Of a DNA stretch of 34,802 nucleotides, positions 17,255-34,802 are shown in pieces (the stretch's first letter is position 1; each line of letters opens with the position of its first letter). Source of the stretch: Nitrospira sp. (lineage in GTDB: Bacteria; Nitrospirota; Nitrospiria; Nitrospirales; Nitrospiraceae). The stretch covers positions 1 to 34,802 of the forward strand of contig JAHFEW010000042.1 in NCBI GenBank assembly GCA_023248215.1, read 5' to 3'. Below the pieces are notes generated by a model that did not search any database, was not told where the DNA came from, and was given only the letters and a program-made list of their open reading frames with translations. The position numbers were made by a program, and so were the translations under genes.

Positions 17255-17298
17255 CTAGGTCCATGCCTAGCTGTCTTCATAGAACCCTCCTCTATAGG
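17255..17298 (+). promoter_or_regulatory. Palindrome-type promoter of the FAD-Rieske gene
   Basis: CTAGGTCCATGCCTAG (17255-17270) has perfect CTAGG/CCTAG half-sites separated by 6 nt. The hexamer TATAGG follows at 17293-17298, 38 bp from first base to first base. The sequence after the repeat (CTGTC) and the -10 hexamer are the same as at the 20431 site. The predicted start near 17305 leaves a 40-nt leader before the ATG at 17345. With the minus-strand site at 17203-17218 this forms a divergent regulatory region. Confidence 0.6.
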
Positions 17299-20430: not shown

Positions 20431-20475
20431 CTAGGAGACTTCCTAGCTGTCCCGAGGAATTGAAGGCTGTATAGG
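20431..20475 (+). promoter_or_regulatory. Palindrome-type promoter (perfect 6-bp arms), possibly bidirectional
   Basis: CTAGGAGACTTCCTAG (20431-20446) is a perfect inverted repeat with 6-bp arms and a 4-nt centre. TATAGG follows at 20470-20475, 39 bp from first base to first base. Transcription would start near 20482, 50 nt before the ATG at 20532. In the other direction a TTATCC/TATCCG hexamer lies 41-42 bp from the repeat's opposite end, so the same operator may also serve the divergent lipoprotein gene. Confidence 0.6.
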
Positions 20476-20531
20476 TTAAGCCGCGTGACCAGACAGAGAT
20501 GGACCGGTGGTCATTAGGAGGGATGAGCGAG

Positions 20532-22265
20532 ATGCGCTATTTAGCGTTGGCAGCCGATTATGACGGGACCTTGGCCTCCGCGGGAACTGTCAGCGCGGAC
20601 ACCGTCGCTGCCATTGAACGCCTGGTGGCATCCGGTCGCAAATTGATCCTGGTGACGGGACGGCTCTTGCCGGAGTTGTTGGATATTTTTCCCCAAGTCT
20701 CGCTATGCGAGCGCGTGGTGGCGGAAAACGGCGCCGTACTGTATCGTCCGGCGACGATTGAACAGACCCTTCTCGCCCCCGTCCCTCCACCGGCCTTCGT
20801 GGAGGAGCTGCAACGTCGCGGTGTACAACACCTCAGCATCGGACAGTCCATCGTAGCGACCCGCGTGCCTTATGAGACGGTCGTCTTGGATGTAATCAGA
20901 GATCTCGGCCTCGAACTGCGCATCGTCTTCAACAAAGGCGCCGTCATGATTCTCCCCGCAGAAATCAACAAGGCCACCGGCTTGACCGCCGCGCTGAAGG
21001 AATTAGAATTGTCACCGCGCAACATCGTCGCAGTCGGTGATGGAGAAAACGACCATGTCTTGTTGATGTCGAGCGAGTACGCTGCGGCCGTCGCGAATGC
21101 CGTCCCCATGCTGAAAGAAACGGCGGACTGCACGACGACAGGAGACCACGGCATAGGGGTCAGTGAGCTGATCGCTGACCTCTTGAATAATGATCTCGAA
21201 ATGGCGGAACGGAGCGTCTCCCGGCATCACATTCTATTGGGCCGGCGTGAGACGGGTGAAGAAGTCACCCTGCGCCCTGCTCGACAAAATCTCCTGCTCG
21301 CCGGCACGTCGGGCAGCGGAAAATCAACGCTTGCCATCGGTCTTTTGGAGCGGCTCGGCGAACAAGGTTATCAATTATGTGTCATCGATCCGGAAGGTGA
21401 TTACGAAAGCTTCCCACAGGCGATCGTCCTGGGCACCGCACAGGATGGTCCCAGCCTTACTGAAATTCTCACGGCCTTGGCCAGCCCAAACAATCATGTG
21501 GTGGTGAATCTCGTCGGTCTGCCGTTGAAAGACCGGCCGTCATTTTTTCTGGGATTACTTCCCAAGCTACAGGAATTCCGTGCAAAAACCGGCCGGCCGC
21601 ATTGGATGCTGGTGGATGAAACGCACCACCTGCTTCCTATCGGAGGCAATCCCACTTCGCTCGCACGCGCGAAGGAGTTAGCCTGCATGATCTATGTCAC
21701 CGTTCACCCCAACCAGATCGAACCCTCGATCCTGGAAACCGCGGATACGGTGATTGCTCTGGGGAAATCGCCGGAGAATACGATCAGGACATACTGCACA
21801 GCGATCCACCAGCCGGCACCGACCATGGCAGTAACCGAGCTTGAACCAGGTCGAGCCCTCGTCTGGGACCGGGCCGATCACGAACCACCCTTTACCTTGC
21901 ACATTGTACCGAGCGCACTAGAGCGGCGTCGACACCGGCGGAAGTATGCCGAAGGTGAGTTACCTCCCGACCGCAGTTTTTATTTCAGGGGCCCGACCGG
22001 CACACTCAATCTGCGCGCGCAAAACCTCATCCTATTCATGCAGATTGGTGAAGGGGTCGATGACGCGACCTGGTTGCATCACCTCCGACAGCATCATTAC
22101 TCTGCATGGATGAGTGAGTCCATCAAGGACGAAGCGCTGGCAGATGCGGTGCGTGAGATCGAAGACCAGAGACGCTTACCGGCTTCCGATAGCCGCCGAT
22201 TAATCCGTGACGCCATTGAAGCACAATACACCCTTCCCGCCGGCGGCAATGACCACTCTTCTTAA
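20532..22265 (+). CDS. HAD phosphatase fused to a P-loop ATPase
   Basis: A 577-residue two-domain fusion. Residues 1-220 form a Cof-type HAD hydrolase: DYDGTL with D9 and D11, the LVTGR motif, and GDGEND with D170 and D174. Residues about 225-460 form a P-loop ATPase of the HerA/DUF87 kind: Walker A GTSGSGKST with K264, IDPEGDYESF, and Walker B MLVDE with D362/E363. A C-terminal helical region (about 470-577) includes GTLNLRAQNLILFMQIGEG. AGGAGG sits 10 nt before the ATG at 20532 but abuts the in-frame ATG at 20523; an ATG at 20499 is less likely. Substrate and partner are unknown. The HAD part resembles sugar-phosphate phosphatases. Confidence 0.85.
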   Translation: MRYLALAADYDGTLASAGTVSADTVAAIERLVASGRKLILVTGRLLPELLDIFPQVSLCERVVAENGAVLYRPATIEQTLLAPVPPPAFVEELQRRGVQHLSIGQSIVATRVPYETVVLDVIRDLGLELRIVFNKGAVMILPAEINKATGLTAALKELELSPRNIVAVGDGENDHVLLMSSEYAAAVANAVPMLKETADCTTTGDHGIGVSELIADLLNNDLEMAERSVSRHHILLGRRETGEEVTLRPARQNLLLAGTSGSGKSTLAIGLLERLGEQGYQLCVIDPEGDYESFPQAIVLGTAQDGPSLTEILTALASPNNHVVVNLVGLPLKDRPSFFLGLLPKLQEFRAKTGRPHWMLVDETHHLLPIGGNPTSLARAKELACMIYVTVHPNQIEPSILETADTVIALGKSPENTIRTYCTAIHQPAPTMAVTELEPGRALVWDRADHEPPFTLHIVPSALERRRHRRKYAEGELPPDRSFYFRGPTGTLNLRAQNLILFMQIGEGVDDATWLHHLRQHHYSAWMSESIKDEALADAVREIEDQRRLPASDSRRLIRDAIEAQYTLPAGGNDHSS

Positions 22266-23184: not shown

Positions 23185-23235
23185 TGAGAACTAGGATTTC
23201 TCCTAGTTCTCACTTACTACCAATCTTCTTACCAT
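23185..23235 (+). promoter_or_regulatory. Palindrome-type promoter, longest inverted repeat of the set
   Basis: A perfect 12-bp inverted repeat, TGAGAACTAGGA (23185-23196) and TCCTAGTTCTCA (23201-23212), is separated by TTTC. Its core is CTAGGATTTCTCCTAG (23191-23206). TACCAT follows at 23230-23235, 39 bp from the first core base. Transcription would start near 23242, downstream of the in-frame ATG at 23234 and 40 nt before the ATG at 23282. That supports the later start. Confidence 0.6.
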
Positions 23236-23281
23236 GCGTCGAGAGTCGGCCCGCGGTAGTCACACGAGAGGGGAGGGCATC

Positions 23282-23746
23282 ATGAGCGCCGCCATAGTCA
23301 TCCCTATATGCTGTGTCTGCAACAGAGTACGAGAGAATGTGCAAGCCGAGGGCAACAGAGAGCAGTGGGATACTCTGGACGCTTTCTTAGGGACGCATCA
23401 TCTATCGAGTGGGGAATATCACCTGACGCATACCTATTGCCCTGTCTGCTCGATGCAATTCAGCAAGCTGCGCAAAACCGATGGCCAGGTTCAGAGAAAA
23501 GAACCGGCACGAACTACCCCGGACAATGATGTGGCCGCCACTATTCTGGATGTGTTCTCGGGGCTGCAAAAATGTGATCTCGACATGCTCGTCCGGGCCT
23601 GTCCGGGTCTGACCTGGAACCAGGTCTTTTCAGAGGTGGACCGCCTCAGCCGAATCGGGCAGCTTCGGTTGAGCTATCTCGGGCATGGCCAATATTCGAT
23701 CGAACTTCCGCAGGCAACTGAAATGCCCTTGGTCTCTCAGACTTAG
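23282..23746 (+). CDS. Zinc-finger-like protein with C-terminal winged-helix-like region
   Basis: A 154-residue protein. The N-terminal part has IPICCVCNRVRE and, about 40 residues later, THTYCPVC. This CxxC...CxxC pairing resembles the 'ICxxCxRIRD...SHxxCPxC' module found beside PAS/GAF sensor domains. The C-terminal half (CDLDMLVRACPGLTWNQVF through RLSRIGQLRLSYLGHGQYSI) looks like a winged helix, possibly DNA-binding. GGGGAGGG before ATG 23282 and the predicted transcription start rule against the frame's earlier ATG at 23234. The stop overlaps the stop of the convergent EEP gene. Function unknown; a small regulator is a reasonable guess. Confidence 0.7.
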   Translation: MSAAIVIPICCVCNRVRENVQAEGNREQWDTLDAFLGTHHLSSGEYHLTHTYCPVCSMQFSKLRKTDGQVQRKEPARTTPDNDVAATILDVFSGLQKCDLDMLVRACPGLTWNQVFSEVDRLSRIGQLRLSYLGHGQYSIELPQATEMPLVSQT

Positions 23747-24459
23747 GCCTGCGTCAGGACATTGCCTTCATGCCCAAGATTGATTTCCGCCCTCACGGGC
23801 AAATGATCTGATGCCGTTTCGCTCAAGGCGGTACTGTGCGCCTGAACGTTTACAAGAGCAGGCGCTGGTGCGACCCAGATCCGATCCAGCGCCAACATCG
23901 GCCATTTGGAAGGAAAGGTTAATGGGGCCGTCGGACGGCCGAATACCCGCCACAATATTCGCAGCGACTTTCCCCAAACGCACCATTCGTTGAGATCACC
24001 CATGAGGATCGTCAATTCCCGTCGCTCCACGTCAAGAAGTTCAAGCAGTCGTTGAACTTGTCGCGGGCGTTCTAACGGCCAGAGCCCCAGGTGGGTATTC
24101 AATACATGGATGGATCGGCCATGGCAGTTCATGTCCACATCCAGCACGCCGCGTGGCTCGTGTCCACCAATGGAGAGATCCCAGCGTCTCACCTTCTCGA
24201 CGGGCAGTTTTGTGAGCACCGCATTTCCATAGTCGCCTTCCGGTCGTGACCGCACCGGCCCGGCTACAGCGGTCATCTTCGTCTTGGCCGCCAGCCAAGG
24301 CAAAATGTGGGTCGTATCCGGCCTCAACACATCGACTTCCTGTAGCGCGACAATGTCGGCCTCCATTTCCTGCAGCACCCGGAGAATGCGCTGAGGCTCA
24401 TACCGCCCGTCCTTCCCGAACCCACGATGGATATTATAAGAGGCCACTTGTATGCGCAT
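23743..24459 (-). CDS. Endonuclease/exonuclease/phosphatase (EEP) family protein
   Basis: A 238-residue EEP-fold enzyme with all the expected motifs: VASYNIHRG (metal/phosphate site Asn), DIVALQEVD (catalytic Glu), HVLNTHLGL (His), LMGDLNEW (Asp and Asn) and SDHLPVRAEI (the C-terminal Asp-His). The family hydrolyses phosphodiesters in DNA, lipids or sugars; this one lacks a signal peptide and the substrate is unknown. Start ATG 24459 fits the family N-terminus (MRIQVASYNIHRG); an ATG at 24486 is also in frame. It overlaps the 3' end of the PLD-VTT gene by 26 nt. A PLD-like gene paired with an EEP gene is a recurring arrangement in bacteria, which suggests phospholipid or envelope work. Its TAA overlaps the TAG of the convergent gene. 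Confidence 0.88.
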   Translation of the reverse strand: MRIQVASYNIHRGFGKDGRYEPQRILRVLQEMEADIVALQEVDVLRPDTTHILPWLAAKTKMTAVAGPVRSRPEGDYGNAVLTKLPVEKVRRWDLSIGGHEPRGVLDVDMNCHGRSIHVLNTHLGLWPLERPRQVQRLLELLDVERRELTILMGDLNEWCVWGKSLRILWRVFGRPTAPLTFPSKWPMLALDRIWVAPAPALVNVQAHSTALSETASDHLPVRAEINLGHEGNVLTQA

Positions 24460-26704
24460 CTCGATCGGCCCCTTCCCGGTGGGCATTACATGAGGGCGTT
24501 GACTGTTCGCCGGTGACCGAACCGGCGATATGACGCCTTGCCGGCAAGCGCCGCGACAGATACCACGCGCCGACCCAGGCGCCCGTGATCAGCACTCCCA
24601 GTACAGCAAAGGCCAGAGGACTCGGTTCTCGCACCGCCTCCTCCAGACGATCGATAAAGGCCGACGTCACCACGATGCCGGGAGTCATGCCGAGCGTGGT
24701 TCCCAGAATGAAGTCCCGCAGAGATAGAGGCGTGGCGCCGGCCACGAGATTCACCATCGAAAAGGGGGCAATCGGCAATATCCTGACCATGAGAATGGCC
24801 CACAATCCGCGTTCGGCGAGGCGTCGGCTCAAGTGAGCGACACGACGTCCGGCGAACCGTTGGACGCGATACCTTCCCAATCTGCGCCCCAGAGCGAATA
24901 GGGTGACGGCGCTCAGCAGCGATCCCGCCAAAGCGAACGGTGCTCCGAGCAAGGCACCGAAGGCGATGACCGTCACGACGATGAGCAGCGTAATCGGAAT
25001 CGCGAGAAACCCACCCACGATATAGCCGCACAGCACGGTTAGGAATCCCACCGGCCCCCGTCCCATGGCCTGCACGGCGTCAACCAGACTCTCGACATGG
25101 ATGCGCTCGCCCATCGGCGTCCAACGCCATGCCGCAGCCAAGGCTCCGATGGCCGCCAACACCGATACTGCGATAAACACACGGCGTCGGATATATTCCC
25201 GTTCTTTACGGTGGATCATGGTGCCTAAGATCTCCTGGGCCACCATGGGACGTTCCGGATCCACCAGTAGATTTTCAGGAATCAGCGCAGCGGCAGTCTC
25301 GCTATTGTCGAAACACCCATCTTCCAAGCTTCGATCTCCCCCGCGTAAGGCATCGATCGCACCAGTCAGCGAACCGACGCAACAGATCTGCTCTGCCACC
25401 ACATCCGCCTTAACCCCGAGGTGCTCACCGATCAACCCGTTACGAAGCGCTGCAATGACGGTCCGTATGTGCGGCTGCCCGCAGGATTCGAGCGCGAGAT
25501 TACATTCGGTATCGAACCCCATGGAACGGTTCGAAACGTTGGCGGAGCCCAGACAGACGAAATCGTCATCCACGATGAGCACTTTGCTGTGCACATCAAC
25601 CTTCTCCGCTCCACCCGTCCCAGGGACTGTCGGGGCACAGACACGCAGTCGACCATAATGATCGGCCAACTCCATATCGCTCAATACTCGGGCCCGCAAT
25701 GTGTCCATCGTCTGGCATTCCAACCAGCCGTCACAATTGTGGCGTAAGACCAGCACCACGTCAGGCCCTTCCGGCTCAGACAAGCGAGCCGCGAGCGCAC
25801 GACCGATCACATGTGCCGTGAAATATTGGGACTCGATATAGATGGACTCCCGGGCGCTCTTGATCCCGTCGAGATAGGCCTGCTGGATTTCGCGAATCTC
25901 GACATGCCCTTCATAGGCAGGTTGCGTGCGCATAATGCCCACGGAGCACTGCTCCACATCCTGCGGCAAAGAAGCAGGCCAGAGTTCCTGCACCGGACGC
26001 CGACCCGGTTGAGGGAGCCGCCGTCCAGTTGCATTGAGCCAGCGGGTTCGGGCCAGATCCCCCAAGGCACCGGCCGCTTCGCCGGAGACCATCATCTGGA
26101 CATCGTGAAAAGGAGCATAGGGGGTTCCATCTGCATCCACCCGCCGGGGGTCTTGGAACGAATGCGCCCTCGTATCCCATCGGGATTTCGTCAAATCCAG
26201 TCCGCCGACGAAGGCAATCGTGTCGTCGATGACCACTACCTTCTGATGGTGCGATGCGCCCATGGGATGCTGGCCGTCGACCTGATAGGAGAGCCGACGA
26301 TGGCCGCTCCATCCCCGTTCGGCCGTCGGCATCCATTCACGCTCCAACGCATAAATCATCGCAAAGTCCCAATTGAGCACATAGACGCGCAGCTTTCGTT
26401 TACGTCGCAACAAGGCGGTCAGAAATTCACCGAGCTTTGTGGGGAACTCCGATGATTCGCCGTCCCCTCGTACCAAGTCGATTTTGGTATCGAGGTCCCA
26501 ACCCACAATTATGATGGAGTGTTTGGCTTGTAACGCCACATCTCGGAATGCTTGAAAATATGCTTGCCCGTCGATAAGAAAGGCCGCTTTCTCAATCTGT
26601 TCACGACGCCAGCAATTTCGTCCTGGTACCAGCAATGGGGAGAGATTTATCACGGCCTGTGCCAAGCCCACCCCCGTATGATCATAAAACTCCTTCTTTT
26701 TCAT
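24434..26704 (-). CDS. Phospholipase D-like protein fused to a VTT/DedA-type membrane domain
   Basis: A 756-residue fusion. The N-terminal half has two HKD motifs: H153-K155-D160 (HHQKVVVID) and H372-K374-D379 (HSKVLIVDD, followed by CLGSANVSNRSMGFDTE). This is the active-site pair of cardiolipin synthases and phospholipases D. The C-terminal part (from about residue 520) has a hydrophobic segment and a VTT/SNARE-associated (DedA-like) domain with GGFLAIPITLLIVVTVIAFG, RLAERGLWAILMVRILPIAP and LGTTLGMTPGIV. GAGGGAG about 7 nt before ATG 26704 sets the start; an earlier in-frame ATG at 26755 lies upstream of the predicted transcription start. Probably an inner-membrane phospholipid-modifying enzyme (inference). 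Confidence 0.92.
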   Translation of the reverse strand: MKKKEFYDHTGVGLAQAVINLSPLLVPGRNCWRREQIEKAAFLIDGQAYFQAFRDVALQAKHSIIIVGWDLDTKIDLVRGDGESSEFPTKLGEFLTALLRRKRKLRVYVLNWDFAMIYALEREWMPTAERGWSGHRRLSYQVDGQHPMGASHHQKVVVIDDTIAFVGGLDLTKSRWDTRAHSFQDPRRVDADGTPYAPFHDVQMMVSGEAAGALGDLARTRWLNATGRRLPQPGRRPVQELWPASLPQDVEQCSVGIMRTQPAYEGHVEIREIQQAYLDGIKSARESIYIESQYFTAHVIGRALAARLSEPEGPDVVLVLRHNCDGWLECQTMDTLRARVLSDMELADHYGRLRVCAPTVPGTGGAEKVDVHSKVLIVDDDFVCLGSANVSNRSMGFDTECNLALESCGQPHIRTVIAALRNGLIGEHLGVKADVVAEQICCVGSLTGAIDALRGGDRSLEDGCFDNSETAAALIPENLLVDPERPMVAQEILGTMIHRKEREYIRRRVFIAVSVLAAIGALAAAWRWTPMGERIHVESLVDAVQAMGRGPVGFLTVLCGYIVGGFLAIPITLLIVVTVIAFGALLGAPFALAGSLLSAVTLFALGRRLGRYRVQRFAGRRVAHLSRRLAERGLWAILMVRILPIAPFSMVNLVAGATPLSLRDFILGTTLGMTPGIVVTSAFIDRLEEAVREPSPLAFAVLGVLITGAWVGAWYLSRRLPARRHIAGSVTGEQSTPSCNAHREGADRDAHTSGLL

Positions 26705-26750
26705 TCTGGCACTCCCTCTCAATACTGCAGAGCACATGCCCAGGACAGGA

Positions 26751-26797
26751 ACCATAGCTCAATCGATCCTGAACTTCACAGCTAGTCACTACCCTAG
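26751..26797 (-). promoter_or_regulatory. Palindrome-type promoter of the PLD-VTT/EEP operon
   Basis: On the minus strand, CTAGGGTAGTGACTAG (26797-26782) is followed by 25 nt and TATGGT (26756-26751), 41 bp from first base to first base. Transcription would begin near 26744, 40 nt before the ATG at 26704. It lies 15 bp from the plus-strand site at 26813. Confidence 0.4.
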
Positions 26798-28896: not shown

Positions 28897-30993
28897 TCAC
28901 AGAGGAGGCTGACCGGTCCGTATTGCGTTCTCCCCCTTTAGCGTCTGACAGGTGCTGGGTTCCTGTTGCACAGCCTTTACGATCGCGCCATACAATTGGT
29001 CGCCCGCTGCCTCCTTGGAGACATAACAACTGGCACCTGCCTCTAGAAGGAGAGATTCCACCTGACCACGCGTGGATACCGAGAGACCGACGACGATCAT
29101 CCCCGGCCAATTGGCTTTGATCCGGCGTGTGGCTTCGAGGCCGTCCATTCTGGCCATGTTCACATCCATGACGATCACATCCGGAGCCAGCAACCCGGCC
29201 AGTTCCACCGCCTCCTCTCCATCGGCCGCTTCACCCACCACGGAAATGTCCCGATAGGCGTCCAAGATACTGCGCAGCCCCTGCCGCACCATCGCATGGT
29301 CATCGGCCAATAGAATGCGAAGCACCTTGCCATGAGCCGGATCAGCGCCGGATGAAAAACTCCCTTCGCCGAGGCCATGGGACTCTGCGGACAGCAGCGA
29401 TTCTGCCTCTCTCGGAATCACCGGACTTGCCGGTAGCGACGACGGACCAGGTTGCGCAACCGGCCTGCGATCGGCAGGCCAGTAGGGAATGATTAATGCC
29501 GCACAGGTCCCTTGGTCGGGGACGGATGTCACCACCAGGCGGCCGCCCATGGCCTCCGTCCGCTCCCGCACGCTGAAGAGTCCGAACCGTTTACGCTCAT
29601 CACTCTGTCCGGTCATTTCATCGAGGTTGAATCCACGCCCCTCGTCCTTCACCGTCACGACGAGATGGCCGTCGCTGTTCCTATCGATAGTCACTTCCGC
29701 CTGGTTGGTGCCGGCATGTTTCAACACGTTGAACAACAACTCACGCGTCGATTGAAACACGAGCACCGCCTGATCGTCATCCAGGACGACATGCTGGATG
29801 TTCTTTTTGACCGTCACCGTCAAGCCATGATTCTGCATTTGCTCCGCCAGCCACCCGAACCCCTCGAGGAGACCGAACTCCTGCAGGGCGGGCGGCGCCA
29901 ATTCGGCGACCAGCGATCGGGTATAGTTCAGTGAATCGATAATGGCCCGATCGGCTTCCATGAGGAGGGACGTCGGGGCCGTTTCCTTGACATGGGAGGA
30001 CGTTTGCCGGATTTTTATCCTGATCAGCACGAGCAGCTGCGCCAGGTAGTCGTGTAGTTCTCCGGCCAGCCGGCGGCGCTCACGTTGTTCCGTCAAAGTG
30101 AGCTCGGTAGCAAGGTCTCGTAGGCGCAACTGGGATTCGCGCAATTCCCGCGTACGTTCGCTGACCCGCTGTTCCAGTTCTACCGCGATCTTTCGTAATT
30201 GTTCCTCCGCGGCCTTGCGCTCGGTCAGGTCGCGCGCCACACGGGCGAAACCGTTCAGCTTGCCCGCGTCGTCGTTCATGGCCGTCATGACGACGTTCGC
30301 CCAAAATTTCGAGCCGTCCTTGCGCACCCGCCAGCCTTCATCCTCATGTTGTCCGGCAGCCGCCGCCATCTGCAATGCCTGGGCGGGATATCCCCGTCGA
30401 ATATCCTCTGCCGTGAAAAATTCCAAATGATTCCGGCCGATCACTTCGTGCGCCTCATACCCTTCGACCAGGCGGGTGCCGGGGTTCCAGCTGATAACGG
30501 TCCCGTCGGGACTGAGCAGGAGAATGGAAAATTCTCTAATGCTGTCCACCAGCAGGCGGAATCGCTCTTCACCGTGCCGGACGGCTTGAAGCTTTACCCG
30601 CTCGCGCATGCGGTACAGTTCGACGAACACGGACACCTTGCTCCGCAGGACCTCCGGCACGACCGGTTTGAACAGATAATCCACCGCTCCGCTCGCCAGC
30701 CCCCGGAACACGTCTTCTTCCAGCTTATCGACGGCCGACAAAAAGATAATCGGAGTATGGCGAGACTGCTCACGCTCCCGTATCAACTCGGCCGCCTCGA
30801 ACCCATCCACTCTAGGCATACGGACATCGAGCAAAATGACGGCAAAATCGTGGCGAAGCACCTGTCGCAGGGCTTCCTGTCCGGAATCCGCCGTGATGAC
30901 GATGCGGCCCGGTCCTGTCAGCAATGTCTCCATCGCCACGAGACTTCTGGCGTCGTCATCAACCAAGAGGATTTTTGCCTGAATCTCGCTCAT
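28897..30993 (-). CDS. Hybrid histidine kinase: REC-PAS-HisKA_3-ATPase-REC
   Basis: A 698-residue protein. Domains: receiver (5-125; LLVDDDARSL, phospho-acceptor D56 in LLDVRMPRVDGF); PAS (about 140-260; SILLLSPDGTVISWNPG, RKDGSKFWANVV); a coiled-coil linker; a NarX/DesK-type HisKA_3 with RERRRLAGELHDYL (H314); a HATPase_c (FQSTRELLFNVLKHA, VKDEGRGFN); a linker; and a NarL-type receiver (ILLADDHAMVRQGL, acceptor D610 in VMDVNMARMDG). The NarL-type receiver normally precedes a LuxR helix-turn-helix, which is absent here. AAGGAG 6 nt before ATG 30993 sets the start; the frame's earlier starts have no support. It lies 180 nt downstream of the larger kinase on the same strand. Confidence 0.93.
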   Translation of the reverse strand: MSEIQAKILLVDDDARSLVAMETLLTGPGRIVITADSGQEALRQVLRHDFAVILLDVRMPRVDGFEAAELIREREQSRHTPIIFLSAVDKLEEDVFRGLASGAVDYLFKPVVPEVLRSKVSVFVELYRMRERVKLQAVRHGEERFRLLVDSIREFSILLLSPDGTVISWNPGTRLVEGYEAHEVIGRNHLEFFTAEDIRRGYPAQALQMAAAAGQHEDEGWRVRKDGSKFWANVVMTAMNDDAGKLNGFARVARDLTERKAAEEQLRKIAVELEQRVSERTRELRESQLRLRDLATELTLTEQRERRRLAGELHDYLAQLLVLIRIKIRQTSSHVKETAPTSLLMEADRAIIDSLNYTRSLVAELAPPALQEFGLLEGFGWLAEQMQNHGLTVTVKKNIQHVVLDDDQAVLVFQSTRELLFNVLKHAGTNQAEVTIDRNSDGHLVVTVKDEGRGFNLDEMTGQSDERKRFGLFSVRERTEAMGGRLVVTSVPDQGTCAALIIPYWPADRRPVAQPGPSSLPASPVIPREAESLLSAESHGLGEGSFSSGADPAHGKVLRILLADDHAMVRQGLRSILDAYRDISVVGEAADGEEAVELAGLLAPDVIVMDVNMARMDGLEATRRIKANWPGMIVVGLSVSTRGQVESLLLEAGASCYVSKEAAGDQLYGAIVKAVQQEPSTCQTLKGENAIRTGQPPL

Positions 30994-31019
30994 GAGCGAC
31001 TCCTTAGCAAGGAAGATAG

Positions 31020-31158
31020 GAGCTGATGGCGTATGGCACGAACAAGGAAGCGAAGAGCTTATAGCCAATAGCATAGGGCGTATTATAGTCAAGACTCGAA
31101 AGAAACGAACGTCCCATCATGCCCTGGCCTCCCGCCATAAGCCCTACGCCATCAGCTC
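31020..31158. repeat. Separated inverted repeat between the two kinase genes
   Basis: GAGCTGATGGCGTA (31020-31033) has a perfect reverse complement at 31145-31158. The 111 bp between hold related short words (GAGCTTATAGCC, AATAGCATAGGGCG) that look like degenerate copies of the same unit. The segment is noncoding. It could be a dispersed intergenic repeat or a processed hairpin; no transposase or tRNA is associated. Confidence 0.5.
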
Positions 31159-31173
31159 TATGCTCCGATTCCG

Positions 31174-34100
31174 TCACGGTTTTCCCATGGCTTTCTTGCG
31201 CCCGAAGAGCCAAATTCTCAAGAGCGCCAGCAACTCATCGGTATTGACCGGTTTCGCAATGTAATCCGACGCGCCGGCTTGCAGGCAGCGTTCACGGTCG
31301 CCTTTCATGGCCTTCGCCGTCAACGCCAAAATCGGCAGCGAACGATGGCGGGGGTTTTGCCTGATTTGCCGCATGGTCTCATACCCATCCATTTCCGGCA
31401 TCATGATGTCCATCAGCACCATGTCGAGGTCCTCATCCTCCTCCACCTTTTGAATCGCTTCACGTCCGGTTTCGCAGCTGGTCACATCCATTCCATGTCG
31501 CTCCAGCAGACTGGTCAGAGCGAAGATATTCCGCATATCGTCATCCACGACCAATACCTTCTTGCCGACCAGCGCGTCATCGCTTTGCCGGACCCGTTCC
31601 AACATCCGCTGCTTCTCCGGTGGAAGCTGAGCCACCACCAAATGCAAAAACAAGGTCGCTTCATCCAACAGCCGTTCGGGTGACTGCACGCCTTTCAACA
31701 CGATCCCTTGAGACAGTTCCCGCAGATGAATCTCTTCTTCCTCGCTCAGGTCTTTGCCTGTGAAGACGATCACGGGAAGATTGCGCAAGGCGTCATGTTC
31801 ACGGATGCGTTCGAGGATCTGGCTGCCGGACATGTCCGGCAGCCGAAGGTCCAATACGACGCAGTCGAAATGCTGTTGAGAAAGCAGATCCCAGGCACGT
31901 GTGCCGTTGTCCGCGGGAACGATGTCCACCTCTTCGTGGCTCAGAAGCTCGCAGAGGCTCCGGCTTTCGATCTCGTTGTCCTCTACGAGCAGTAATTGCT
32001 TGCGTCTGGGTTTCGTGAAGTCCACCAGGCGTTCGAACGTTTCACCCAGGTCTTCGGTCGTGGTCGGTTTAATCATGTAGGCAAATGCGCCGTGCCCGAG
32101 GCCGTGCAATCGTTCCTCTTCCACGGTCAGGATCTGCACGGGAATATGCCTGGTGTCGGGATCCTGTTTGAGGTGACTCAGGACCGTCCAACCCAGCATG
32201 TCCGGCAGGAAAATATCCAACGTGATGGCCACCGGCTTGTATTCCCGGGTCAAGCTCAGGGCAAGACGGCCATGGGCGGTGACGATGCCCTTCAGCCCCT
32301 TCTCCCGGACGGCTCCCAGGAGCACGCGGGCATAATGCGGGTCGTCCTCCACGATCAAGACGGTCGGTTCGCCGGGCAGGATGGTTTCGCGGTCGTCCGG
32401 AATGTCTTCCAAACGGTGGGCCTGTTGCACGAGCAACGGCGTCTGCTCCTGCATCTGGAATTTAGGAAGAATCAGTTCCGGCGCGGCGCCCATATAGGCC
32501 TCCGGCAAATACAACGTGAACGTGCTGCCCTCGCCGGGAGCGCTGACCAAACGGATTTCACCGCCCAGCAGCATGGCCAATTCCCGGCTGATAGCCAGCC
32601 CGAGTCCCGTTCCGCCGAACCGCCGGCTCGTCCCCGCGTCCGCCTGTTGAAACGCCTCGAACACGATCTTCTGCTTTTCGACCGGAATGCCGATGCCGGT
32701 ATCACTTACTTCGAATGCCACGACGGTTGGGACGGTGCTGAGCACCGCATGGTCCAAGCTCCAGCCGGCCAGCGCCCGGCGAATTCTGAACGTGACGTGA
32801 CCATGAGACGTAAACTTGAACGCATTGGACAGGAGGTTTTTCAACACCTGCTGCAACCGCTTGAAGTCCGTGACGATGCTGCGGGGCAATTGGGAGTCAA
32901 TGTCGATGTGGAAGCTCAGCTGTCTGGCTTCGGCCACGTGGCGGAAACTGCGCTCCGTGGCCTCCCGCACCTTCATGAAGAGCACTTCTTCCGGTTCGAC
33001 CGTGACCGTGCCGGATTCGATCTTGGACAGATCGAGGATGTCGCTGATCAGATTGAGGAGATCGGCGCCGGCCGCATGAATATTTCTAGAAAACTCCACC
33101 TGCTTGGAACTGAGATTGCGGTCCGGATTTTCCCCGAGCTGTTGCGCCAGAATCAGAATGCTGTTCAACGGCGTCCGTAATTCATGTGACATATTGGCCA
33201 GGAACTCGGACTTGTACTTGGACGCCAGCGCCAGCTCTCGCGCCTTCTCTTCCAACGCATGCCGGGCCTGCTCGATTTCCCGGTTCTTCCGTTCCACCTC
33301 CGCATTTTGCTCGGCAAGCTGTTGCGCTTTCTTGGCCAACTCCTCGTTGGTTTGCTGGAGCTCCTTCTGTTGGGCCTGGAGTTCGGTGGCCAGGTTCTGC
33401 GACTGTTGCAGGAGGCCTTCGGTCTGCATCGTCGCTTCGATCGTATTGACGACCACTCCGATCGTCTCCGTCAATTGTCCGAGAAAGGCCACATGGGTGG
33501 GAGTAAATTCCGCCAGCGTGGCCAGCTCGATGACCGCCTTGGTCTGGCCTTCGAACAAGACGGGCAACACGATCACGTTGCGCGCCTGCGCCTCGCCCAG
33601 CCCGGAACGAATCCGTATGTAGTCGGGCGGGACGTCGGTCAGTATGATGCGTCGCTTTTCGCGCGCGCATTGCGCAACGAGTCCGACCCCGACCTTCATC
33701 TCCGCCGGTACGTCTTCCCCTCCCTCGCCGGCATAGCTGGCAAACAGGCGCAGCAATGGCTTGTCCCCCGTATCGCGCTGATAGATCGCGCCGTATTGTG
33801 CGTTGACCAGCGGGGCAAGTTCTGTCAGGAGCAGATCGCCTACCGTCGTCAGGTCCCGTTGCCCTTGCATCATCCGCGTGAATTTGGCCAGATTGGTCTT
33901 GAGCCAGTCCTGTTCGGTATTCTGATCCGTCGTCGCGCGCAGGGTTCGGATCATGACGTTGATATTGTCTTTGAGCTCCGCCACTTCGCCGCGCGCCTGG
34001 ACCTGAATGGACCTCGTAAGGTCTCCTTGCGTCACGGCCGTCGCCACTTCAGCGATCGCGCGCACTTGCGTCGTGAGGTTGGCTGCCAAGAGATTTACGC

Positions 34101-34802
34101 TTTCCGTCAGGTCTTTCCAAGTCCCTGGAACGCCCGGCACGATGGCCTGTCCCCCGAGTTTCCCCTCGGTGCCGACCTCCCGCGCGACCCGCGTGACCTC
34201 GCTGGCGAACGCGCTGAGTTGGGCGACCATGCGATTGATCACGTCCTTGATCTGCAGAATTTCCCCCCGCACGTCGACCGTAATCTGCCGCGTCAGATCT
34301 CCATTCGCGATAGATGTGGCTACGTTCGACATATCTCGCAGTTGCACCGTTAAGTTACTGGCCATGGCATTGACGCTGTCGGTGAGATCCTTCCAGGTGC
34401 CGGCCACCCCCGGCACGACCGCCTGTCCGCCCAGCTTCCCTTCCGTCCCGACCTCGCGCGCCACCCGCGTCACCTCCGCCGCGAACGCGTTCAACTGGTC
34501 CACCATCGTATTCGTCGTGTCCTTGAGCTGGAGAATCTCGCCCCGCACGTCCACGGTGATTTTCTTCGACAGATCGCCGCTCGCCACCGCGATCGTGACT
34601 TCCGCGATGTTGCGCACCTGCGCCGTCAGGTTGCTGGCCATGGCGTTCACGCTGTCGGTGAGATCCTTCCAGGTGCCGGCTACCCCCGGCACGACCGCCT
34701 GTCCGCCCAGCTTCCCTTCCGTCCCGACCTCGCGCGCCACCCGCGTCACCTCCGCCGCGAACGCGTTCAACTGGTCCACCATCGTATTCGTCGTGTCCTT
34801 GA
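31174..34802 (-). CDS. HAMP-array hybrid histidine kinase with three receivers (5' end outside window)
   Basis: At least 1,209 residues are visible and the frame runs off the right edge. Domains from the visible N-terminal side: three HAMP repeats of 92 residues each ([19 protein letters not shown]... and VDVRGEIL in each), a fourth HAMP-like piece, a GAF domain, a long coiled coil rich in Gln/Glu, HisKA ([10 protein letters not shown], His codon at 33186-33184), HATPase_c ([34 protein letters not shown]), then three receivers with acceptors in [21 protein letters not shown] and [11 protein letters not shown]. Long HAMP arrays of this kind occur in soluble or membrane osmosensing-type kinases (Nik1-like). 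No output domain is visible, so phosphotransfer to a separate regulator is expected. Confidence 0.95.
34373..34802 (-). repeat. Near-identical direct DNA repeat within HAMP modules
   Basis: Positions 34649-34802 and 34373-34526 match at every position but one (C at 34405, T at 34681) over the 154 bp visible, at an offset of 276 bp or exactly 92 codons. The third HAMP copy (about 34097-34250) is clearly more diverged. The near identity points to recent duplication or gene conversion inside the coding sequence, and the copy count may vary between strains. Confidence 0.8.

Follow-up and report, generated by a model that had tools for sequence, protein, structure and literature searches.

A widespread bacterial protein joining a HAD-IIB phosphatase, a HerA-fold ATPase and an OrfY-like module, with a possible role in the stress response

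What could be the function of a protein that joins a small-molecule phosphatase to an ATPase resembling DNA translocases? The initial annotation of a Nitrospira gene described such a pairing as odd and without an obvious pathway. We analysed the whole stretch of DNA that carries the gene (34,802 nucleotides; hereafter the window) and related loci from other bacteria. The gene, its control elements and the domains of its product are as follows.

20431-20446, no strand: palindrome CTAGGAGACTTCCTAG, the probable site of a regulator; about half of the orthologs have it upstream
20470-20475, + strand: TATAGG, possible -10 element by sequence, ~31 bases from the palindrome centre, similar in several orthologs
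20516-20522, + strand: AGGAGGG, ribosome-binding site by sequence
20532-22265, + strand: gene of the 577-residue HAD-HerA-OrfY protein, stop included
20532-21191, + strand: HAD-IIB phosphatase domain, residues 1-220 (PF08282, NCBIfam HAD-SF-IIB; fold 1wr8)
21219-21929, + strand: compact HerA-fold ATPase domain, residues 230-466 (PF01935; 9x1m fold match; Walker motifs)
21930-22229, + strand: C-terminal OrfY/DUF5752-like module, one repeat, residues 467-566 (4cso fold; profile match)

The reading frame is open on the + strand from 20499/20532 to 22265. The start at 20532 is right, because homologs align there (Met in 96 of 99 extracted rows) and AGGAGGG precedes it. The whole protein was modelled with AlphaFold on 44 sequences (mean pLDDT 89.1, pTM 0.78), and its C-terminal 117 residues were also folded alone (pLDDT 85); statements on fold matches refer to those listed, at most 50 per search. 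The anatomy of the protein is almost certainly three-domain. The HAD phosphatase and HerA-like ATPase parts of the fusion initially described are supported by profile, motif and predicted fold, and the motifs in both halves are intact at the residues named (D9, D11, GDGEND at 169-174, K264 and D362/E363); the fusion is not, however, one of two halves only, as a third domain lies at residues 467-566.

The N-terminal domain matched PF08282 (Hydrolase_3) above the Pfam gathering score (E 7e-27, 95 bits). It belongs to the HAD-IIB group, scoring 79.4 bits against the NCBIfam HAD-SF-IIB cut-off of 41.8, with D9, D11, T42, K147, D170 and D174 conserved. The label "Cof-type" given to it is loose, the score for the Cof subfamily (TIGR00099) being 88.9 bits, under the 137-bit cut-off. 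The top-scoring NCBIfam model was that of archaeal phosphoglycolate phosphatase (TIGR01487), though at 92.1 bits the match is also under its cut-off of 122.75 bits. In the predicted model, residues 2-224 aligned with the HAD-IIB phosphatase 1wr8 (Z 27.6, 221 aligned, rmsd 2.5); lower matches listed included trehalose-6-phosphate, sucrose-phosphate and mannosyl-3-phosphoglycerate phosphatases. Fold and catalytic motifs are like those of HAD-IIB phosphatases of the PH1421/TA0175 and sucrose/trehalose-6-phosphate phosphatase kinds, whereas the window protein falls under every named equivalog cut-off tested and is fused to two more domains. The HAD cap domain, throughout the superfamily, suits small substrates.

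The middle domain is a member of the HerA/DUF87 family (PF01935, E 3e-6, 27.8 bits against a gathering score of 23.2). Its motifs are Walker A at 258-265, DPEGDY at 286-291 and DE at 362-363. Asp followed by Glu in Walker B is a mark of HerA/FtsK/RecA-type ATPases, and DP-x-G-[DE]-Y is the HerA form of the second motif. In the predicted model, residues 230-466 aligned with HerA 9x1m (Z 21.2, 227 aligned, rmsd 2.7), followed by 4d2i (Z 20.9) and VirB4 4ag5 (Z 19.9, 222 aligned). Membership of a metabolic kinase family, which would have given the ATPase half an ordinary explanation, was not found: the HerA fold match extends over 227 residues and Walker B reads Asp-Glu. The window protein thus shares the ATPase fold, Walker A and B and the DP-x-G-[DE]-Y-type motif with HerA (PF01935), including SIR2-HerA and HerA-NurA. 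It differs in its compact core, 227 residues of which align to a 400-residue HerA span, and in that no separate partner gene recurs. A barrel ahead of the ATPase core is a feature of the HerA DNA translocase; in the predicted window protein this barrel is not present, and residues 1-224, the HAD domain, take its place. With the HAD domain in this position and no recurring partner gene in the neighbourhoods examined, a DNA-translocase role is unsupported.

Residues 467-566 appear to adopt the OrfY fold, by fold comparison of the predicted model and by a weak but consistent sequence similarity. The best listed match was 4cso, the OrfY protein of Thermoproteus tenax (Z 10.4, 95 aligned, rmsd 2.2), well ahead of the following one at Z 5.4; the score is to be read with the fold tool's warning that for mostly helical models Z below ~13 can mean merely a common arrangement. 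Foldseek alone ranked 4cso top at a non-significant E of 1.1. The A4 profile matched 4cso with E 0.001 over the whole chain (0.08 for the best stretch on its own), and hhalign aligned A4 with a free-standing DUF5752 protein of the same genome (E 2e-6, probability 89%), which itself matched 4cso with E 1e-17. Against the PF19027 (DUF5752) gathering score of 23 bits, only L015 (25.8 bits) passed among six subfamily A C-terminal stretches tested; the window protein scored 12.0, L029 12.2, L053 17.3 and L086 19.5 bits, and L018 gave no match. L126, of the distant subfamily B described below, passed with 25.6 bits. PDB entry 4cso was deposited as a transcription factor. OrfY has two repeats, whereas the C-terminal 100 residues of the window protein would correspond to the fold of a single repeat fused to enzymes. 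We found no publication on OrfY in the literature, although the word occurs once in PMC5906684; the T. tenax msc-gt-tpsp trehalose operon is described in PMC3634074, the portion of which available to us does not mention OrfY.

The free-standing DUF5752/OrfY gene of the same genome (within L121:8273-11867; C38) is followed by genes for a GH13 enzyme and a TreT-type glycosyltransferase, with GlgE two genes on. A TreT-type glycosyltransferase gene lies near the free-standing gene in all four Nitrospirota loci examined (L121, L122, L123 and L124). L122 also has a mechanosensitive-channel-type gene nearby, and L123 and L124 hold relatives of it at 38-39% identity. Dependence of the fusion on the free-standing gene was considered and rejected. 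Both genes were found in 6 of 16 same-genus genomes searched, the fusion only in 2, DUF5752 only in 0 and neither in 8. Shared descent of the two is the simpler reading, because G028 and G031, genomes from the same order, have DUF5752 but lack the fusion, and because only 2 of 24 genomes with the fusion elsewhere have a full DUF5752 match.

The protein is not the isolated oddity that it first seemed; related stretches are numerous. A scan of an 84,980-species collection gave 211 candidate stretches, of which 173 were confirmed and the best 80 kept. By record title, these best 80 of 173 came from Nitrospira, cyanobacteria, Melainabacteria, Planctomycetes, Acidobacteria, Chloroflexi, Actinomycetes, alpha- and gammaproteobacteria and others; the tree rows fall into twelve phylum-level groups by the same criterion, many of them binned metagenomes. 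The spread over the tree is uneven, and some copies are plasmid-borne, at least 80% of the protein being present in eleven plasmid records. Within the phylum, 17 of 148 genomes matched at E 1e-15 or better, all in one family. Within the genus and order, 14 of 41 genomes matched at E 0.001 or better; these include one with a distant subfamily B copy and a short fragment (G020), two with partial copies (G002, G012) and two with copies split over two frames (G001, G003). The split copies (L010 in G001; L011/L127 in G003) may reflect either sequencing error or decay. The L013 protein is identical to that of the same-genus genome G019. On a Chloroflexota contig (L034, 2179-3894) the open frame continues upstream for another 432 residues, a possible extension.

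Subfamily B is about 30-33% identical to the window protein and forms a separate branch (support 100/100). Its gene lies directly downstream of hypF in 4 of 10 loci (L125, L126, L140 and L141, the first two nearly identical), where it is a distant paralogue within a hydrogenase and maturation cluster; some other subfamily B loci have Hsp20 or CBS genes nearby. Conservation was assessed on 104 copies (94 of subfamily A, 10 of subfamily B; six partial or split rows, the window's own duplicate, L099 and L100 omitted; L005 equals L013). D9, D11, T13, K147, D170, N173 and D174 of the HAD domain and G258, G263, K264, P287 and G289 of the ATPase were invariant in 104/104; E363 and R335 were each kept in 103 and D362 in 99. 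Neither half is a relic, since nearly every copy retains the two active sites.

We found no published description of a HAD-HerA-OrfY fusion in the literature, and the protein, widespread in bacteria, is apparently undescribed. Annotated plasmid records (six full-length, one HAD-only) name only a HAD hydrolase, which leaves the ATPase and OrfY parts unseen. Synechocystis Slr0586 was considered as a possible relative and dropped; the portion of PMC6278635 available to us places four candidates in the 'dehr' group of HAD proteins.

The surroundings of the gene were compared in five Nitrospira loci, where its place is largely syntenic, with genes for Ku, a FAD-Rieske oxidoreductase, a glycogen debranching enzyme, a CBM48-GH13 protein (which we take to be TreZ-like) and a PLD-VTT protein. 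Ku was close in 4 of 5 (window, L128, L129 and L130); the fifth stretch, L127, stops short of this position. Outside Nitrospira, no recurring partner was found: among the first 150 of 169 neighbours (called genes of 100-700 residues, within three genes), no Pfam family occurred in more than 4 and no NCBIfam family in more than 3. When neighbour proteins were clustered, one cluster (median 460 residues) occurred in 5 groups and the others in at most 4. In blastp of 28 proteins against called genes of 84 loci in 43 groups (source loci counted), the FAD-Rieske protein and GT4 were each met in 4 groups, PQQ dehydrogenase in 3, and Ku, debranching enzyme, hemerythrin, Mn-catalase and Dps in 2 each; 8 proteins were met in 1 group and 12 in none. 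The gene caller used misses genes, a query from L097 having failed to match itself in this check. In tblastn against 86 loci in 45 groups (source locus excluded), the FAD-Rieske protein was met in 4 groups, GT4 and PQQ dehydrogenase in 3, and debranching enzyme, GH13 and CBS proteins in 2; seven proteins, Ku among them, were met in 1 group and 15 in none. Both checks would miss distant homologs. Plasmid annotations nearby named, in scattered fashion, Dps, hemerythrin, rubredoxin, trehalose-6-phosphate synthase, universal stress and CBS proteins; neither check found trehalose and stress genes as regular neighbours outside Nitrospira. As so little recurs around it there, the gene seems self-sufficient.

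The palindrome promoter noted initially exists, and the window holds further copies of its palindrome.

17255-17270, no strand: second exact copy, 74 bases before the FAD-Rieske gene (17345, + strand)
23191-23206, no strand: third exact copy, 27 bases before ORF 23234-23746 (+ strand)
26782-26797, no strand: one-mismatch copy before the PLD-VTT gene (24434-26755, - strand)

The minus-strand Ku gene starts 318 bases from the second copy; ORF 23234-23746 was dropped by the gene caller and matched nothing. CTAGG-N6-CCTAG was exact upstream of the fusion gene in 8 of 16 Nitrospirota orthologs (window included) and near-exact in 2 more (L003, one mismatch; L011, two). It was absent there in the other 6 (L005, L009, L013, L014, L148 and L149), and no exact copy was found in ten subfamily B loci. 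In L013, the fusion gene starts 34 bases past a FAD-Rieske gene (74% identical to that of the window), which has the palindrome 93 bases upstream. Of 47 five-base N6 palindromes in the window, 7 are intergenic; three of these have the CTAGG arm, the sole arm with three intergenic copies. With up to two mismatches, the window gave 21 matches against 7.1 expected, a number reached by 0 of 100 shuffles.

In the whole genome, the palindrome has 18 exact copies against 17 of its backwards control and so is not over-represented by this measure, though the control lacks the CTAG core. All 18 lie outside called genes, and 16 have a called gene start within 400 bases, placements that depend on a crude gene caller (L184 has few calls). 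The non-coding position of all copies is less striking because CTAG itself avoids coding DNA: 13 of 31 CTAG in the window are coding, though the window is 86% coding. By Pfam, the first genes near sites encode the FAD-Rieske protein, the fusion protein, polysaccharide synthesis (two sites), ferritin-like, YtxH, multi-HAMP, FkbH-like, hemerythrin, Lon-C-like and RsbRD-STAS proteins and, as a divergent pair, NDH2 and GT4. A transposase and two proteins without a known family are also encoded by first genes. Second genes encode Wzi (a capsule protein), an isoamylase-type enzyme and a GH15 protein with a trehalase-like N-terminus, and an outer-membrane efflux protein and a YaaH-type transporter lie more than 400 bases from a site. 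This tally leaves out the closest genes of L186 and L187. The palindrome occurred in all 26 genus genomes searched (1 to 18 copies), including genomes without the fusion gene; we found no account of it in the published literature. We read it as the predicted site of a stress regulator, and an activator would fit the distance between its centre and the TATA-like element. A minus-strand row (28897-34782 of the window and L178, 771-3959) consists of a hybrid kinase-type gene (28897-31092, by Pfam), a large ORF (31174-34782) and the gene for a multi-HAMP protein. A palindrome lies 156 bases before this last gene, which is the one read first.

Control sequences of another kind were found in alphaproteobacteria. 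The EcfG-type general-stress promoter has the consensus GGAAC-N16/17-CGTT. Judged by this consensus, the box was exact, with 16-base spacing, in all five fetched Sinorhizobium loci (three further plasmid records of the genus, H5-H7, left out). RpoE2 is the general stress sigma factor according to the portion of PMC3616915 available to us. Within 150 bases upstream, the box in 49 alphaproteobacterial loci was exact in 7 and had one mismatch in 11, two in 25, three in 5 and four in 1; in 457 other genes of the same loci, the numbers were 16, 32, 93, 294 and 22. Thus 18 of 49 fusion loci had at most one mismatch, against 48 of 457 control genes; the rows are related and are not independent counts. 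Many Mesorhizobium loci share the form TAAAC-N16-CGTT, two mismatches off the EcfG box. As stress-type control signals occur in two unrelated groups (Nitrospira and Sinorhizobium), we tentatively place the gene among general stress genes. The supposed lack of a pathway is thereby partly resolved: no partner gene recurs in the neighbourhoods examined, and the control signals, which are of stress type, give the best clue.

We propose that the protein is a stress-induced, ATP-controlled, probably ring-shaped phosphatase of small metabolites with an OrfY-type sensing module, a general scheme whose chances we regard as about even. Stress would switch the gene on, as the promoter sequences suggest; this is the sole step with support beyond domain content. 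Ring formation, substrate, ATP coupling and the role of the OrfY module we infer. The HAD-IIB head would hydrolyse a small phosphorylated metabolite (a sugar phosphate or phosphoglycolate-like compound) via an Asp9 phospho-enzyme. The HerA-fold middle would bind and hydrolyse ATP, probably assemble the protein into a ring, and serve the HAD head as scaffold or switch instead of pumping DNA. The OrfY module may sense or dock, and so set the state of the ring. In Nitrospira the substrate could belong to trehalose or glycogen metabolism, an idea suggested by some of the site-linked and nearby genes; elsewhere such genes are not regular neighbours.

Other explanations of the fusion were weighed. 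The protein could serve as an effector in anti-phage defence or other conflict, its HerA-type ring bearing the fused enzyme in the way that HerA bears SIR2 and other effectors in defence complexes already known. The ATPase half matched the PADLOC mad8 model (E 3e-12, residues 233-420), and SIR2/HerA and another anti-phage HerA complex were among its listed fold matches; the uneven spread and plasmid copies would agree with such a role. The likeness to the MADS defence protein Mad8, on which we found no publication in the literature, lies in the ATPase half, the HAD and OrfY parts being different. Stress-type promoters and neighbours, the syntenic place in the five Nitrospira loci and the absence of a recurring defence partner from the pooled Pfam and NCBIfam tallies of neighbours make this reading improbable. 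We also consider it unlikely that the protein is an ordinary metabolic HAD phosphatase with the ATPase and C-terminal parts as passengers: the Walker and DPEGDY residues are conserved about as well as the HAD active site in many phyla. A HAD-only relative without the ATPase (221 residues, 57% identical) does exist on a Nostoc plasmid (L097, 8001-8666), but such a close relative was met once among the fetched loci.

A machine processing DNA or RNA ends, whose HerA part moves on nucleic acid while the HAD domain clears 3'-phosphate or phosphoglycolate together with Ku, would account for the HerA fold, for the sub-cut-off rank of the archaeal phosphoglycolate phosphatase model and for the closeness of Ku in Nitrospira. 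The HAD domain, however, retains a cap that suits small substrates and occupies the place of the HerA barrel, and outside Nitrospira blastp detected Ku in just 4 of 84 loci and tblastn in 3 of 86, all three from Mesorhizobium; we regard this function as distinctly unlikely. Least probable to us is a bifunctional kinase-phosphatase like polynucleotide kinase-phosphatase, in which the P-loop half is the kinase for the same substrate. HAD and P-loop pairs of this sort exist, and the family profile matched adenylyl-sulfate kinases with E 4e-5; Walker B Asp-Glu, the DPEGDY motif and the long alignments to HerA and VirB4 argue against it.

If the scheme of an ATP-controlled stress phosphatase is true, a HerA-type ATPase would be used to control a metabolic enzyme, and the protein would offer a handle on the OrfY/DUF5752 module. 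A bolder and doubtful extension is that the family represents a new class of enzyme, encoded by one gene and scaffolded by a HerA-type ring that has given up moving DNA and instead presents phosphatase heads, which an OrfY-type sensor of sugar or stress state would switch. Were this the case, the OrfY module would link archaeal trehalose-associated regulation to a bacterial general-stress phosphatase.
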